From the NCBI GenBank assembly GCA_905250025.1, contig CAJNOJ010000028.1, positions 1 through 64,000 on the forward strand: 64,000 nucleotides of DNA. The letters are read 5' to 3'. Numbering within the stretch: the first letter of the stretch is position 1; each line of letters opens with the position of its first letter. The DNA is from Adineta ricciae (taxonomy: Eukaryota > Rotifera > Eurotatoria > Adinetida > Adinetidae). Shown piece by piece: positions 18,057-27,400 of this stretch. The position numbers and the translations under genes were made by a program. The notes under the pieces were generated by a model that was not told the DNA's origin, searched no databases, and saw only the letters and a list, made by a program, of their open reading frames with translations.

Positions 18057-18296
18057 AATTTGTTCGAACTGAAGTTCGAGTTATCTTTTTTTGATAAAAT
18101 GAGAAGTGTTTGACCTAAATCTTTAGCGAACAGATATCATGAGTAACTGTCGGCATTCGTTGATTCTCTCATTGGTGGCAATGACAATGATCAACGACGA
18201 CGAATACTGCAGATGTCGTACGGTACTCATCACATGTTACCAATAATCTGCTGGCTGTGTGTGTGTTCAATGAACACATCAAAAACTTGTGAGATA

Positions 18297-18739
18297 TAAA
18301 GAAAACGCGCCTAAACGATTCTTCACATTCACTCCTACACTTTTCATGGTAAAATAAAATAAAATAAAATAATCTTTTCTCTGCGCTATCCAAATAAACT
18401 CTATCCATTCTAGACATATCAAACATTTCGTGAAGCATTGACAAAATATGTATGTGAACCAACCGATCAGATCATTAATAAATTCCATTCGTTTCTAGCT
18501 TAACAGTCAAAAAGCAGNTAAAGAAAACGCGCCTAAACGATTCTTCACATTCACTCCTACACTTTTCATGGTAAAATAAAATAAAATAAAATAATCTTTT
18601 CTCTGCGCTATCCAAATAAACTCTATCCATTCTAGACATATCAAACATTTCGTGAAGCATTGACAAAATATGTATGTGAACCAACCGATCAGATCATTAA
18701 TAAATTCCATTCGTTTCTAGCTTAACAGTCAAAAAGCAG
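18297..18739. repeat. Direct duplication of a 221-bp block around a single N (repeat R copies 2 and 3)
   Basis: Bases 18297-18517 and 18519-18739 read the same, with N at 18518 between them. An exact 221-bp copy flush against a gap character is the usual trace of two contig ends that overlap but were not merged. The block includes the core that is found inverted at 1-137. The second copy ends at the splice acceptor of the first visible DNAL1 exon. So the real locus may contain only one copy, or an unrelated contig was joined here through a dispersed repeat. Confidence 0.85.
18518..18518. other. Assembly gap (single N)
   Basis: Single ambiguous base at the junction of the duplicated blocks. 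The true distance between the flanking contigs is unknown. Confidence 0.95.
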
Positions 18740-20018: not shown

Positions 20019-22169
20019 AAATGTCAAGCTACTTATCTGATAAAGCTCAATATCCATATTGATCGAGCATGAAACGGACACGGGACGTGCGACATATACA
20101 TGAGACAAATAAATACAAATAAAGAACATTTGAGTGCTCCACATACATTCACTTTGTCAAGAAAAAGAAGAAGAAAAGGCAAAATGAAGAATACTTCAAT
20201 TTACTTGGTAAATGTCATCTTCCAATACTGTCACTCAAATCGAAAGCTAGCGAGTGAGCGCGCGCGCGCGAGAGAGAGAGAAACATCAAAACAATAACAA
20301 TACACTCATTGCATTCGGATTATTAGGAGTATGCATACGCGTACTCCATCAAAGTAACAGTTTTGATTGTTTGATGATGTTAGTAACTGTAGACAAGAGC
20401 TTTGATGAATCAATCAATGTATACACATACACTAGATTTTATGTATATATAAACAAGATAGTGTATAAACAATATTACGATAACAAATTCAAACATAATA
20501 GCACTCGATATCCGTTCATATTAATGACTATGGGAAATAGAAGAACTTGTTCGATGTGGATGACAATCGCTTATTGATAAACCTATCTTAATATTGAACT
20601 AATAAGGAATTTTTGTCTGTCGAAGAAGAGAACACAGTCTTCGACATATGAGGAAATTCTTATTGAATTAGAGAACGAGACGAGCGTCTCGTCTTGTCGA
20701 CGCTCAACCCTTGAATCTGTGACGACATCCCAAGTGTTACATCGTTCATATTGATGTAGTCTATTACCTTGTCATTTTTCTTCCCTGACACATACACATC
20801 TACATCAAGAATTACCATTTTATAATTAGAACGCTGAATTCAATCTTCTCAGCATCTTATCATTTCCTTCATAAATATCGGTAATTTTCTAAGTTTAAAC
20901 TTATACAACGGTGGTATTCATTGGAAGGGCTCTCGTCAATACGATCGGATGCGCGACTCTTATATCATAAAACTTATTCAATTGTATGTTGTTGTTTTTT
21001 TTCGAGAATATTAACTAATACTAACAATAAGAGGTGCATAACTGATCCTAGTTCTATCAGTATTCATTTCTTCCAGTCTTACACTGTTATAGAGCATTTA
21101 CTCATATGTTGCTTATTTTCTTCTTAGTAGATTTGTTTATATTGCGAGTTCTACTGATGCATATAATAAAAGTATCAGTACATTGTGATTTAATGTTATT
21201 TTCGTTCTTATCGATGCGAAGAATTTTGTCTGAGCGTCTTATAAGGCACATGCACCAATTGTGGAAATTTCCGGTCTGGAAGAAATAGCAAACTTCTCTT
21301 AGACTTTTGTAAATAGCATACGAGTGGAAAAAATAAGTCATTTCCGAACTTCTAAAATATGCTATTCAACCTTGATATAGACGTCAATCATTTCATCCGT
21401 TTTGACAAAAGGAATAGTTTATACAAAAAGAGAATCATGAAAGGCGACTTTGACTGATGCCAGCAATCGAAATTGATCATATGAACTAGTTTGGAATTTG
21501 TTCACCTTATGCGTCATACTCTCGTGTGTTTAGTCAGCAGAAAATCTGTTCCTTCCCTGATAATATATTTTTGGCAGTATGTTTTGTCAATTGGAGTACA
21601 AGTACTTTCTCGTTCGTTAGTTTTACAAATATAATAGTTTTTTGTGATAAATGGTAAAATCATGTAGTATAAAACTAAGTTTATCCACGTGTAAGAATTG
21701 TTAAGTCAAACGAAAAGTCTTTCGTTTAGAGAGTATATGTCAATATAAGAATGAAATCATTTGTCGACTAAAATCAACATCGTAATAATAAAACCTACAA
21801 GTGACTTTGAAGTAAATGACGTCGCTCTCTCTTTTTAGTATACCGAAGGATTTTGACTCCTACGGTCTGCTAAAGAATAAGATCGGGTCTCGTCCAATTG
21901 TGCATAATATTGATTTCGGCTTTTGTATGTCTGATGACGTGTTTCTGAGACGAAAATATGTGGTCTCACAGCAGGAGAATTGCATTTGACGTCAATCTTC
22001 TTACAAACTTTTTTCCCAACATCTTTATCATGTGTTTATATGTATGGCCTTAAGAAAATCACGCACATCGGCGGCCATATATATATATATATAAGATACG
22101 ATTGTTCGAATATACATAATCATTTCATCTAACTGAACGAAATACATCTCAACGATTTACAATACAACG
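20019..22169. other. Gene-poor region with simple repeats and a hairpin
   Basis: No supported gene in about 2.1 kb. It holds a GC/GA dinucleotide run at about 20258-20280 and an inverted repeat at about 20668-20704 (acgaga/tctcgt and gagcgtc/gacgctc arms). A TA run at 22077-22094 is treated as the promoter of the next gene. Confidence 0.6.
22077..22094 (+). promoter_or_regulatory. TATA-rich element upstream of small gene 1
   Basis: A TATATA run ending TATAAG lies 76-93 bases upstream of the ATG at 22170. The second paralogue has TATAAATA at nearly the same distance from its ATG. Position and sequence fit a TATA box, but TA runs are common in this AT-rich DNA. Confidence 0.4.
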
Positions 22170-22419
22170 ATGGTTGACTTTGGAGAAATCGATAGTAAGT
22201 ACTATTATTCAATTGTACTATTTACTAATGACAATCACTTTGAATCTTTAGAAGAAGCTGCATGGATGCTAATAACTGGTAATACTCAAGTGAGTTATTT
22301 CACTTTTACTTCATCCATTTTATTTATCATTCTGGCATTTTTAGAGCAGTTCCCCGGCAGTTCTGACTTTCTCTAAATATGACAACGACATCGGTCATAT
22401 GGAAAGTAGTTGCACGTAA
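22170..22419 (+). CDS. Tiny three-exon gene 1 of a new-looking family (45 aa)
   Basis: Exons 22170-22194 (25 nt), 22252-22289 (38 nt) and 22345-22419, with GT-AG introns of 57 and 55 nt in phases 1 and 0. The product starts MVDFGEID, continues KEAAWMLITGNTQ and ends with a short polar tail (SSSPAVLTFSKYDND...). It has no signal peptide, membrane helix or known motif. Support comes from comparison: the gene at 23633 has exon 1 and exon 2 of exactly the same lengths and phases, and the same AA-x-M-x-I-x-GNTQ pattern at the end of exon 2, although the DNA has diverged. I do not recognise the family and assign no function. Confidence 0.6.
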
Positions 22420-23632
22420 TCATTCATTGGATAAATGGAAGAGATCGGCGATTTAAATGACAGCATTTAAACTTTTAAAAAAAAATTCATGATATGGCAA
22501 AAAATCAAAAGATATCCATACAAGATGCTATCTCATTTTCTTACGAAATGGCTGCTTATTTATACTTTTGTTTCGTTTTTTCTTTTGAAAATCTTTTCAT
22601 ATTTATGTTCGACTTCCAATTATCGACATGCAATAAATATATATATATGTGCATACACTATGTTTTGTCCGCACGTACCACACATCCGATGAATTCTCTG
22701 GCAGACAAAACTTCTCGGAAAACGCGTTGAAATTTCGTTAAAACCTTGACATTTTTACGTGTTTGTTTTCGTTCTAGTTTTTGTCTGCCTGGGTAGTTGG
22801 GTGCAAAGTGTGACTGGAGTGGTGATTTACTATGGCTACTGCTTATTAAAAGAGGCAATCAAGGTAAACCATGGAACATGAATCGCGACGTTGGTTTAAC
22901 ACGCGTATTAGTGACGAAAAGTTTTGTTATGATATTTACTTTCAAAAAGAAATAATAATAAGTAAATGTGAGTTAGACGTCATTACCTATGAAAATGTCT
23001 GTGTTACGATGAATTGCTTGTGATGATTATTATCTAGTAAGATTGTACGTATACAGCTGTTGCAAGCGAAGATTATATGAAGAAGTGGATCATTTGAAGA
23101 CATTTCAACCATAGTTAAGAAAAAAAAACAGTAATAAAGATGATAATTGATGATGTGACATTATGTGGAGTCAGTTCCTGTACTTCAGAAATCTATAATA
23201 TTGTGCACGGCCAAAAGGGATCTAAGTTTTGAAAGAAGTATTGAGACGATTCGAAATATTTTTCTGTCTTAGAGCGTAAAATCAAGATTCGTTATTGACG
23301 TCTGTTCTATGAAATTGAGTACAGCAAATTGATTTCGCTTTTGATATTTTGGTCAATGTAACAGAGCGAATCAAATTGATTACTCATCATACCTTGGCAA
23401 ACTCCAACTAATTATCACGTCATACCGTGATTTGTATTCTTTAGCGTATCGTACACCTCATTTCCGAAATCATGGAAGAGTGTGGGAATACTATTTCATT
23501 CGTTCTTCCTTTCTTTGAGTCTATCAAAATCACGACAGTAAGCTCATATAAATATGGCCGTAGTATAATGCCTCTAATATTATCAAATTAAACTATAAAC
23601 GTCTAGGCAGGTACACTTCAGTGTCGAAAACC
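22420..23632. other. Spacer between the two tiny paralogues
   Basis: About 1.2 kb. A stretch at 22776-22864 reads as a hydrophobic open frame between AG and GT, but without a partner exon. Nothing else is supported. Confidence 0.5.
23547..23554 (+). promoter_or_regulatory. TATA box-like element upstream of small gene 2
   Basis: TATAAATA lies about 80 bases upstream of the ATG at 23633, the same spacing as the TATA run before small gene 1. Confidence 0.45.
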
Positions 23633-23917
23633 ATGTTCAATCCATCAGACTGTGACAGTGAGTAGAATGCTTCTTTTGTCTTCTATTTCAATTTCTGTTT
23701 GTCAAACTTTAGGTGCTGCTGCTGTTATGTACATAAATGGAAACACACAGGTACGTTGAATTTTTTTCTCAAATCTCGTTCGAGATTATGTTTTTTTGTT
23801 TAGATAGATAACACTATCGGTCTTGAATATACAACCAATGACAACCAAAATACAAAGGTGCAATCCAAGTGCCAAACTGAATTGATTTCGTTATCAACCT
23901 TATCGATCAAAGAATAA
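23633..23917 (+). CDS. Tiny three-exon gene 2, paralogue of the gene at 22170 (58 aa)
   Basis: Exons 23633-23657 (25 nt), 23713-23750 (38 nt) and 23804-23917, with introns of 55 and 53 nt. The product begins MFNPSDCD, then SAAAVMYINGNTQ, then a polar, Asn/Thr-rich tail (IDNTIGLEYTTNDNQ...) that contains one Cys and ends in KE. Exon lengths and intron phases equal those of the gene 1.2 kb upstream. The shared core is D-x-x-A-A-x-M-x-I-x-G-N-T-Q. The exon 3 parts hardly align. The TAA stop overlaps an AATAAA signal (23913-23918), so the transcript would be very short. Function unknown. Confidence 0.6.
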
Positions 23918-24049
23918 AATTTACCTTGACATAATAACGGCTAGTCAATATTCTTGATTATTGGTTGAAACGGGCAACATCGGCTAGTGCAAGAGAAGCG
24001 CAGTACACGTCATAAACATGTTTTTCTTACGATTGATTCGAACCTATAT

Positions 24050-24403: not shown

Positions 24404-27400
24404 TTAGCTAAAGACATGTCTAATTCTAAACAAATGAAGATAAATGCACGAAAATGATCTTCTCGCAGCGCAGGCAAATTCTTTACCGTCGAGTGTCCAT
24501 GGCGATGAATTATCCGTATTTTTTTCTCGCGTTTCGTTTAATTTATTGATAACTTCATCGACATGCTGAATTTGTAATAAACGAAGTAAATGGCCAAGTC
24601 TATGTCAGAAAAGATGAGCGACATACATAACTGAAGAGAGCAATTTTGAAGTATTTTACTGTTCTCGTGTAAGAGCTACATTTTGATTGACATCGAGAAT
24701 GTTAAACCATCGTTTGAGATCGTCCGCTGTATAACATCCATTGTCGATAATCGGTAAGAATGTATCGCGAAATTCAGTCCAATCAATCAAAGGATCTAAA
24801 TAAATCGAATTAGTAAAACGAATACTTCGCATAATTTTCTATCCAACCATTTTGTTGTTGTTTTTTATCGAGAAACGATTGAATGAATTGTTGTAAATCA
24901 CTGTTGGAGATATTGATATGATGATTAAGAAATTCATTTGCCATGTTCATGGATAGGTATTCATTGGTACTATTCAATTGTTTCTTATCCGAACTAGCAC
25001 CGAGACGTTTGAAAATTTCACCAAGTGCTGTTGTGTTTAAAGAGAATTAATCGAACTTTGTGAAGGAAATTTCGTCTTTGGTCAGTACTTACTAGTTATT
25101 CTTTGACTGAATTTCTCATCGGGTTTCTTTGGGAAGTTAATCACGGGTACTTCTAATGTTATCGTCTGGTTTTCGGTTGGTGATTGATTGAACCATTGCT
25201 GATTTTCGGTTTCTGTTGCTAAAACATGTTCATTCACGTCGTCAGTCTTTTTGATTGCTTCAATCAATTCTATTGAAAGGAAAGATAGCATAGAAACACG
25301 AAATCCTCGTTTTCACGATTCAATTACCATCAGCACTTAGTTTACCATCATGATCGGTGTCGTATTTGTCGATAATATTCTGTGCAAGATGAACTGTGTC
25401 GTTAGCTTGAAGGACTTCAAGTAATTCTGAAAGCAAGTACTGTCATTTTCATGGGATATAACCAAAAACTTGGATTTTTACCGGCAATTTCTTGCACGGA
25501 GAGATGACCGCCTCCGCTAAGATCGAACAGGTTGAATAATTTGCGAATGTGTTGTTCGGTATACCGTCCAGATACCATTGGAAAAAGAATATCACGAAAT
25601 TCAACCCAGTCGAGTGTGGAAGAACGATCTTTGCAAGACATAGTATGTTTAATATAAGAAAAGAAGAATTAGGGATATTTACTTCCTTGTGCAGCTGCCT
25701 GTACAAGGTATTTTCGAAGTAAACCGTCGAATAATGTTCGTAGAAGCTGATCGCGAAATTCAAGACGATCAAATAACTTATCTGGTAGAGCATTATCTAT
25801 TTCGACTAGATCTTCATTGTTAGCTAATTCATGGAATACATAACGAAGTTCTAGAAGAGATTTGAGACGGAAAGAGTGATCGAAAACGAAGTATTTTTAT
25901 TTTCAACTGACCTTGAACTATGACGGCTAATTTCGGATCATCATCATCTTCATTTGGTCGACTTTCCGGCTTGTCAAGAGTGGCTACATTTGTTACAAAG
26001 ATAGAAATATAGACTTCAATATGAATCGTATCTTACTTTCAACATCGGTTAATGAAGAATCGCGAGATGATCGTTTGCTTGTATCTTGTAAAGTAAAATA
26101 TTGAGCGTCAGGTAATTGAGCATCGCTAACTTTAGTTGAGGAATCATAATCGATGAGATTACCCTCCTCTTTCTTATCAACAAGAGAAGAACTACTTTCT
26201 TCTTCTTCTCTTTTCGTTTCATCGCACGAGTAAGTCTGTTGTGACGATTGAGGTTCATTGTCCTGAGTAGTTAATGGAATATTTGTGTTCGGTTGAGAAA
26301 GACTTGCTTCTCTTTCTTCTTGCGGCATAGTTTTTGAGTCAAATGATGGGGTACGTGATCCTTTCATGTCAGCATCAAGAGAAACTTCATATTCTTCCGT
26401 TAAGGAATGTTCGGTAGCAGGTGTAGACAGACGACGTTCACCAGGATTCGAATGGTGAACTGATTGTTCGTCAATCGCGGATAATGTTTTTTCTTCATGA
26501 TTAGTTTTGTCACCTATTTCGTTGTCTGCTTTTGGAAGGTGCTGTGCAATATTTCCTAATTCGTCTCCTAGAGCAAGCAAAGAATAAAAAGCAGTGCTAG
26601 TGCGTAAACAATTCATAACTACCTTCAGTAGTTGAAGGTTCGTTTGATTGTAGTAAGTCCGAAGATGTTGTTGGATCGACTGAAGCCTTCCGAGACGCGG
26701 ACTGATGTTCAGATGTGGGAGTTGCAGAGTGTTGTTGTAGCTCTGGCTGCACGGTAGTATCTCCTGTCGACGAACGTCTATGGTCATCAGATGTTGCTAC
26801 TGAACTTCTCGAGGACGTGCGTGATCGCGACTGGTGTTCGAGAATCATTGATGATTTACGTGATGAAGATGGAGATTCATGTGAAGAAGATAAAGGTTGT
26901 TTTCCTTCTTCGACGTGGAATTGAGCTGTAGCTGTCGTAGAAGCACTCTGAAGATCGAATGGTATGTTCTCACCATCTGATGATTTGCGTGATGGTAACT
27001 GCTGTCCCACAACTGCTGACGTGTTCGTTTCAGATGGGTGCCTTGTAGTATCTGATGGGACTGCTGAGCTGATTGAGGAAGTACGCAATGAATGTTGGGG
27101 TTCATTGAGTGAGATTACTGACTGCTGCTCGGCAACTTCTGAAGTAGCGCTTGTAGAAGTACGTCTTTGACTATCAGATTCCGCTGCTGAGAGTACCGAT
27201 GACTTGCGGGATGATGGTTGCTGTTCAACGATTGTTTGTTCAGCTGCATTAGCGAAGAGTTCTGGCGCTGTAGATGATGCTCGTGATGTGAGTTGATCTT
27301 CCTGTGAAGGAGACGATGGCGACTGACTCACACTAGATGCAGTTGGCTGTTCTGGAACTGCCGCGACACCAGACGCTGACGTTCTTCTTTGGTCACTGGA

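Follow-up and report, generated by a model that had tools for sequence, protein, structure and literature searches.

Two small three-exon genes on the forward strand of an Adineta ricciae contig, at 22170-22419 (gene 1, with a 45-aa product) and 23633-23917 (gene 2, with its ATG at 23633 and a 58-aa product), are probably real protein-coding members of a small family with four copies: gene 1, gene 2 and a third gene present on two other contigs, C51 and C78. We put the probability of this explanation, including the duplication history described below, at about 0.72 on the strength of the sequence comparisons. The stretch analyzed, referred to here as the window, is C28:1-64000, a 64,000-nt segment of a 130-Mb assembly of 1033 contigs. 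The initial annotation had regarded the pair as real, selected paralogues, a view that is now supported by a syntenic third member with the same 25/38-nt exon layout on C51 and C78 and by exons that are better conserved than introns. The family appears to be undescribed, and taxon-restricted (orphan) microprotein genes are a known kind of gene. The coordinates of the genes and of their neighbours are collected in Table 1.

Table 1. Positions of the family members, their component parts and the adjacent EF-hand genes. Positions without a contig name refer to the window.
Feature	Position	Strand	Remarks
Gene 1 TATA-like tract	22078-22093	+	TATAWA scan; overlapping TATATA from -92 to -82 of the ATG
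Gene 1 exon 1	22170-22194	+	25 nt; MVDFGEID plus the first base of the next codon
Gene 1 intron 1	22195-22251	+	57 nt; phase 1; GTAAGT..TTTAG
Gene 1 exon 2	22252-22289	+	38 nt; (K)EAAWMLITGNTQ
Gene 1 intron 2	22290-22344	+	55 nt; phase 0; GTGAGT..TTTAG
Gene 1 exon 3, including stop	22345-22419	+	SSSPAVLTFSKYDNDIGHMESSCT
Gene 2 TATA box	23547-23552	+	TATAWA scan; TATAAA at -86
Gene 2 exon 1	23633-23657	+	25 nt; MFNPSDCD plus the first base of the next codon
Gene 2 intron 1	23658-23712	+	55 nt; phase 1; contains an in-frame stop
Gene 2 exon 2	23713-23750	+	38 nt; (S)AAAVMYINGNTQ
Gene 2 intron 2	23751-23803	+	53 nt; phase 0
Gene 2 exon 3, with stop	23804-23917	+	IDNTIGLEYTTND...; 38 codons including the stop
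Convergent EF-hand gene, matching frames	24659-25896	-	EF-hand matched in the frame 25417-25641
Third gene, C51 copy	C51:31395-31163	-	same three-exon layout
Third gene, C78 copy	C78:106486-106254	-	same three-exon layout
EF-hand gene copy flanking the third gene	C51:29372-30558		
EF-hand gene copy flanking the third gene	C78:104464-105650		

The gene models put forward in the initial annotation were borne out with respect to layout and product size. Both genes have a first exon of 25 nt, a second exon of 38 nt, intron phases of 1 then 0, introns of 53-57 nt and proteins of 45 and 58 aa, and all four introns are of the GT-AG type. The TATA-like box expected about 80 nt before each ATG was found 82-92 nt upstream. 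All four family copies carry TATAWA between -79 and -92, whereas the motif is found at -95 to -65 of only 87 of 3092 ATGs (2.8%) on both strands of the surrounding 74 kb. Gene 2 has a second TATAAA at -39. The sequence AATAAA overlaps the stop codon of gene 2 and lies 212 nt past the stop codon of gene 1. Aligned over 34 codons without a gap, the two proteins have 12 residues in common. The claim that exon 3 has diverged held only in part, since the exon is not conserved as a whole (its length across the family is 57, 75 or 114 nt) but its first 13 codons align. T-I-G-L-x-Y-T is common to the gene 2, C51 and C78 copies, and its presence in the aligned start of exon 3 in gene 2 and C51 is part of the reason why we do not regard this exon as wholly diverged. 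In the alignment L28 and an aromatic residue at position 30 are kept in all four copies.

Two further features of the pair were observed. Intron 1 of gene 1, with its 57 nt, is a multiple of three and free of stops, so that its retention would leave the frame open, and the wholly unspliced frame of this gene (22170-22376) would encode 68 aa. CRE-like sites (TGACGT/ACGTCA) are denser around the pair, where nine are counted at 20-26 kb, between 21381 and 24007 and with one palindrome counted twice, versus 40 in 74 kb overall. Because no such density is seen near the C51 and C78 copies, these sites were not used in the interpretation.

The pair had been picked by eye and could have been a coincidence, and we therefore sought an independent, unseen copy. 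DNA searches with the flanks revealed a diverged duplicate region on C78 and C51, with 66-87% identity in the matching blocks. In a scan for exon-2-like peptides with flanking AG/GT, C78:106409(-) and C51:31318(-) ranked behind only the two genes themselves, sharing a score of 10.0 with a further place on C78. On both contigs the third gene is complete, with first and second exons of 25 and 38 nt, introns measuring 50 and 63 nt in phases 1 and 0, and TATAAA at position -79; it encodes 39 aa. The first 34 residues of the C51 product align with gene 2 without a gap and 14 of the 34 are identical. Gene 1 is more distant, sharing 6/34 residues with C51 and 7/34 with C78. An independent homologue with the same gene structure is thus present at the orthologous place. 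Upstream of the third gene, at a distance of 0.13 kb (C51:31526(-), C78:106616(-)), there is an ATG-starting stretch that by eye resembles exon 1 of gene 2 (R-P-S-D) and is frameshifted between the two contigs. It may be what remains of a counterpart of gene 1.

Exon lengths of this kind are not rare. GT-AG models with 25/38-nt exons start at 26 ATGs in 244 kb, and random sequence contained 10,792 such models in 160 Mb, so that the weight of the pair comes from its residues and from the third copy. When scored against genes 1 and 2, the third gene reached 35 on C78 and 34.5 on C51, the best unrelated of the 26 models reaching -4.5. With the same profile, the 5321 models contained in 80 Mb of order-3 Markov sequence scored no higher than 20.5. 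None of 2000 column-shuffled profiles reached 34.5 (maximum 19.5) when applied to the 19 real models that lie on contigs other than C28, a test biased toward the real value by the choice of these models as the best under the unshuffled profile. Gene 1, scored against gene 2 and C51 only, reached 25.0, and the next unrelated real model scored -5.0. Among the 10,792 random models from 160 Mb, one also reached 25 under this profile, with a score of 37, and this null therefore has a tail. A re-scan of 58 loci (L002-L059, introns of 35-120 nt) with a three-member profile placed the family copies at 75-98 and the best unrelated model at 5.0, and found only the four family copies above 5.0.

These scores bear on the simplest alternative, namely that two look-alike models were assembled by chance from intergenic sequence. 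The commonness of such models (26 in 244 kb) and the free choices involved in picking a pair by eye would favour this explanation, but the syntenic third copy outscores each of the 5321 random models and the exons are constrained between C51 and C78. We consider a chance origin extremely unlikely and already largely refuted.

The comparison of C51 with C78 gave 3 substitutions in 120 exon positions, 13 in 113 intron positions, 89 in 778 upstream positions and 67 in 966 downstream positions, the downstream segment extending into the EF-hand gene. Between C51 and C78, the pair for which these regions were compared, the coding exons evolve more slowly than the introns and flanks (Fisher P = 0.008 versus introns and 0.001 versus upstream). 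The three exon differences fall in two codons, one at each codon position, and both codons change the residue. As none is synonymous, the C51-C78 pair alone shows exon constraint and not codon-level selection. The apparent evidence at the codon level comes from the deeper comparisons, in which third positions differ most. The differences at codon positions 1, 2 and 3 number 14/16/23 between genes 1 and 2 and 12/14/22 between gene 2 and C51, both being small numbers and counts by position only. Of the identical residues of genes 1 and 2, 10 are degenerate and 7 of these use different codons, and the same is true of 7 of the 13 degenerate residues shared by gene 2 and C51.

In principle, the loci could encode short spliced non-coding RNAs in which the open frames are incidental. 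Such an explanation would be in keeping with products that are tiny, diverged and without a recognized domain, and with the fact that the C51-C78 exon changes all alter a residue. It is, however, quite unlikely in light of the gapless frame kept over 34 codons at three loci, the predominance of third-position differences and the synonymous changes at conserved degenerate residues just described, and an Rfam search of the window without any hit at gathering scores.

A different explanation is that a formerly longer gene was copied in its 5′ portion, and that the present genes are decaying relics of this kind, selected partly or until recently. The unequal lengths of exon 3, the distance of gene 1 from C51 and the possibly broken exon-1-like stretch upstream of the C51/C78 gene could all be read in this manner. 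Nevertheless, frames, splice sites and TATA boxes are intact in all four copies, each of which has an AATAAA at the stop or at most 212 nt after it, and the exons of C51 and C78 are conserved above their introns. We therefore regard decay as unlikely and favour functional protein-coding genes.

The history of these genes can be approached through their neighbours. The match that identifies the EF-hand gene next to gene 2 is close to the threshold (PF13405 at 25.1 bits versus a cut-off of 25). The matching edge of the EF-hand gene lies 0.74 kb from gene 2 and 0.60 kb from the third gene on C51 as well as on C78, and it is because of this shared neighbour at a matching distance that gene 2 is taken to be the ohnologue of the C51/C78 gene. 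Beyond the EF-hand gene, blocks in the window at 29-57.6 kb match C51 from 27.6 down to 2.0 kb, and those at 29-53 kb match C78 from 102.8 down to 81.4 kb. On the other side, blocks at 4.5-20 kb match C78 at 121.7-131.3 and 147.9-157.5 kb. The positions on C78 of the blocks for both flanks imply a rearrangement between the flanks. The block matching 4.5-20 kb occurs twice on C78 (121697-131272 and 147915-157473), in direct orientation and about 26 kb apart, and reflects either a genuine tandem duplication or the joining of two haplotypes during assembly. A scan for 25/38-nt models detected no counterpart of gene 1 on 100 kb of C78 and 50 kb of C51, and DNA searches with the pair and its flanks brought up no other allele of this part of C28. 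As part of the overall explanation, gene 1 is probably a tandem paralogue, found on the C28 side only, and gene 2 and the C51/C78 gene are probably ohnologues from a genome duplication.

The GC content of the window is 36.2%. Excerpts from the A. ricciae genome study (PMC5916493) give a GC content of 35.6%, a homologue KS of about 0.14, an ohnologue KS of about 1.27, and a larger reference assembly of 174.5 Mb in 4,125 scaffolds. The GC content of the window and the divergence of about 11% between the introns and upstream regions of C51 and C78 at this locus, together with their deep divergence from C28, would fit the separately assembled homologues and the ohnologues of a bdelloid. Telomere-repeat matches, at 38 versus 44 for the control, were uninformative about the taxon. 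The ohnologue sets a minimum age for the family, at or before the duplication, and also allows a test of selection.

Relatives outside these loci were sought in several ways. In agreement with the initial annotation, which had recognized no domain, signal or membrane segment, no Pfam family exceeded its cut-off (one match, of gene 1, had an E value of 0.13 and 12.2 bits versus a cut-off of 25), and inspection of the sequences revealed neither a signal nor a membrane segment. NCBIfam and PDB chains gave no match up to E 10. Genome-wide, the exon-2 pattern with at most two mismatches occurred at 7 places. Two of these are the genes themselves, and by eye a GT donor follows at none of the other 5. 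The exon-1 pattern occurred at 5 places, namely gene 2, C51, C78 and 2 others, versus 3 for the reversed control, and the exon-1 pattern of gene 1 found gene 1 only. The exon-3 motif had 16 places versus 10 for the reversed control; three are gene 2, C51 and C78, and the remaining 13 are without a 25/38 model. At one of these 13, C143:241387(-) (L049), an exon-3-like LRTIGFVYTLSDN followed by a stop comes after a pyrimidine-rich tract and AG. It was rejected as a family member, there being no exon 1 or 2 upstream, and is probably due to chance.

A genome-wide DNA search with the C51 gene returned C51 and C78 only. The corresponding protein search with the C51 product found C51 and C78 and missed gene 2, and that with gene 2 found only itself and missed C51 and C78. 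Since neither was found from the other, the tie between gene 2 and C51 rests on the three-exon comparison, and since protein searches missed known relatives, they would also miss further diverged members. A pattern search of prokaryote genome contigs gave no support to a horizontal origin. Just one of 136 pattern matches passed, from Hallella bergensis, and was judged to be chance; it has MFNPSDCD in common and 46% identity over 28 residues, within a frame of at least 217 aa (open at its end) that otherwise has no visible likeness. Among viral contigs, none of 11 pattern matches was confirmed. These prokaryotic and viral pattern searches detect unspliced relatives only. Topic searches of the literature, a weak approach because they cannot query by sequence, did not find the family named.

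A transposon origin was rejected too. When 22100-24000 was used as a DNA query, the only hits apart from the query itself were 3 short ones, and these all fell on a single intergenic stretch. That stretch, 22699-22793 between the genes, has inverted ends (GGCAGACAAAACTTC ... GTTTTTGTCTGCC), and parts of it match three other contigs with 82-89% identity over 44-57 nt. It may represent the decayed remains of a short inverted-repeat element. Elsewhere in the window, at 18169-18710, reading frames MVHIHILSMLHEMFDMSRMDRVYLD... recur 222 nt apart with an unread base at 18518, the result of either a tandem duplication or an assembly seam.

What the products might do can be addressed only tentatively. 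All four are acidic (pI 4.05-4.28), with GRAVY values of -0.22, -0.45, +0.20 and +0.36. Regulation is common among compact TATA-driven genes, and acidic proteins that are small and have a short conserved core often bind as ligands to larger partners. The combination of TATA-driven compactness with small acidic products that have such a core therefore leads us to favour an inducible intracellular peptide ligand among possible roles. Transcription of each gene would start from its TATA promoter, splicing would remove the two minimal introns, and translation would yield an acidic product of 39-58 aa. The protein, judging by composition and motif inspection only, would remain intracellular and play a regulatory role as a small ligand. 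Binding to the partner would be through a face made up of the first 34 residues, with D8, A11, the mostly hydrophobic positions 13-16, L28 and the aromatic residue at 30, and the tails beyond them differ in length. We consider this sequence of steps, from transcription to ligand role, possible but doubtful.

The proteins could instead be secreted, as peptides or as precursors of peptide hormones, if a 5′ exon bearing the signal had been missed. Short products and a small tandem family would be in keeping with secretion, but inspection showed no hydrophobic signal stretch at the N-termini and no dibasic sites. Moreover, the TATA box precedes the ATG by 79-92 nt in all four copies, which leaves little room for another 5′ exon. 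Secretion is highly unlikely in our view, and an intracellular product is preferred.

Resemblances to known systems are partial. Like the LEA and hydrophilin desiccation proteins, the products are small and without a recognized globular domain. Hydrophilins are, however, defined by a GRAVY below -1, and the four products, at only -0.45 to +0.36, lie above this value and have no LEA match in Pfam. The motif pYxN is a ligand of the Grb2 SH2 domain, and Y-I-N in gene 2 and Y-V-N in C51 and C78, located in the same columns, bear a suggestive resemblance to such ligands; Y-x-N is absent from gene 1, however, so that the motif is not conserved throughout the family. Another parallel may be the lineage-restricted orphan genes of bdelloids, which are similarly without a recognized domain. 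Excerpts of a study of Adineta vaga describe bdelloid-specific genes without known function that are induced by desiccation and radiation (PMC10809525). Those genes were defined by expression, in contrast to the present family, which is known from its sequence and has products of less than 60 aa.

Taken together, the genes can be described, with less than even confidence, as undescribed and possibly bdelloid-restricted TATA-driven acidic microproteins with two micro-exons. Such a family would predate the bdelloid genome duplication, would diverge rapidly while its exon lengths and short core are held, and would serve a lineage-specific inducible response. The same excerpts on the bdelloid stress response indicate that genes of unknown function, some of them bdelloid-specific, are prominent in it (PMC10809525). 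Three-exon genes coding for less than 60 residues are easily overlooked by annotation and, if expressed, this family would add a traceable, old microprotein family to the bdelloids.
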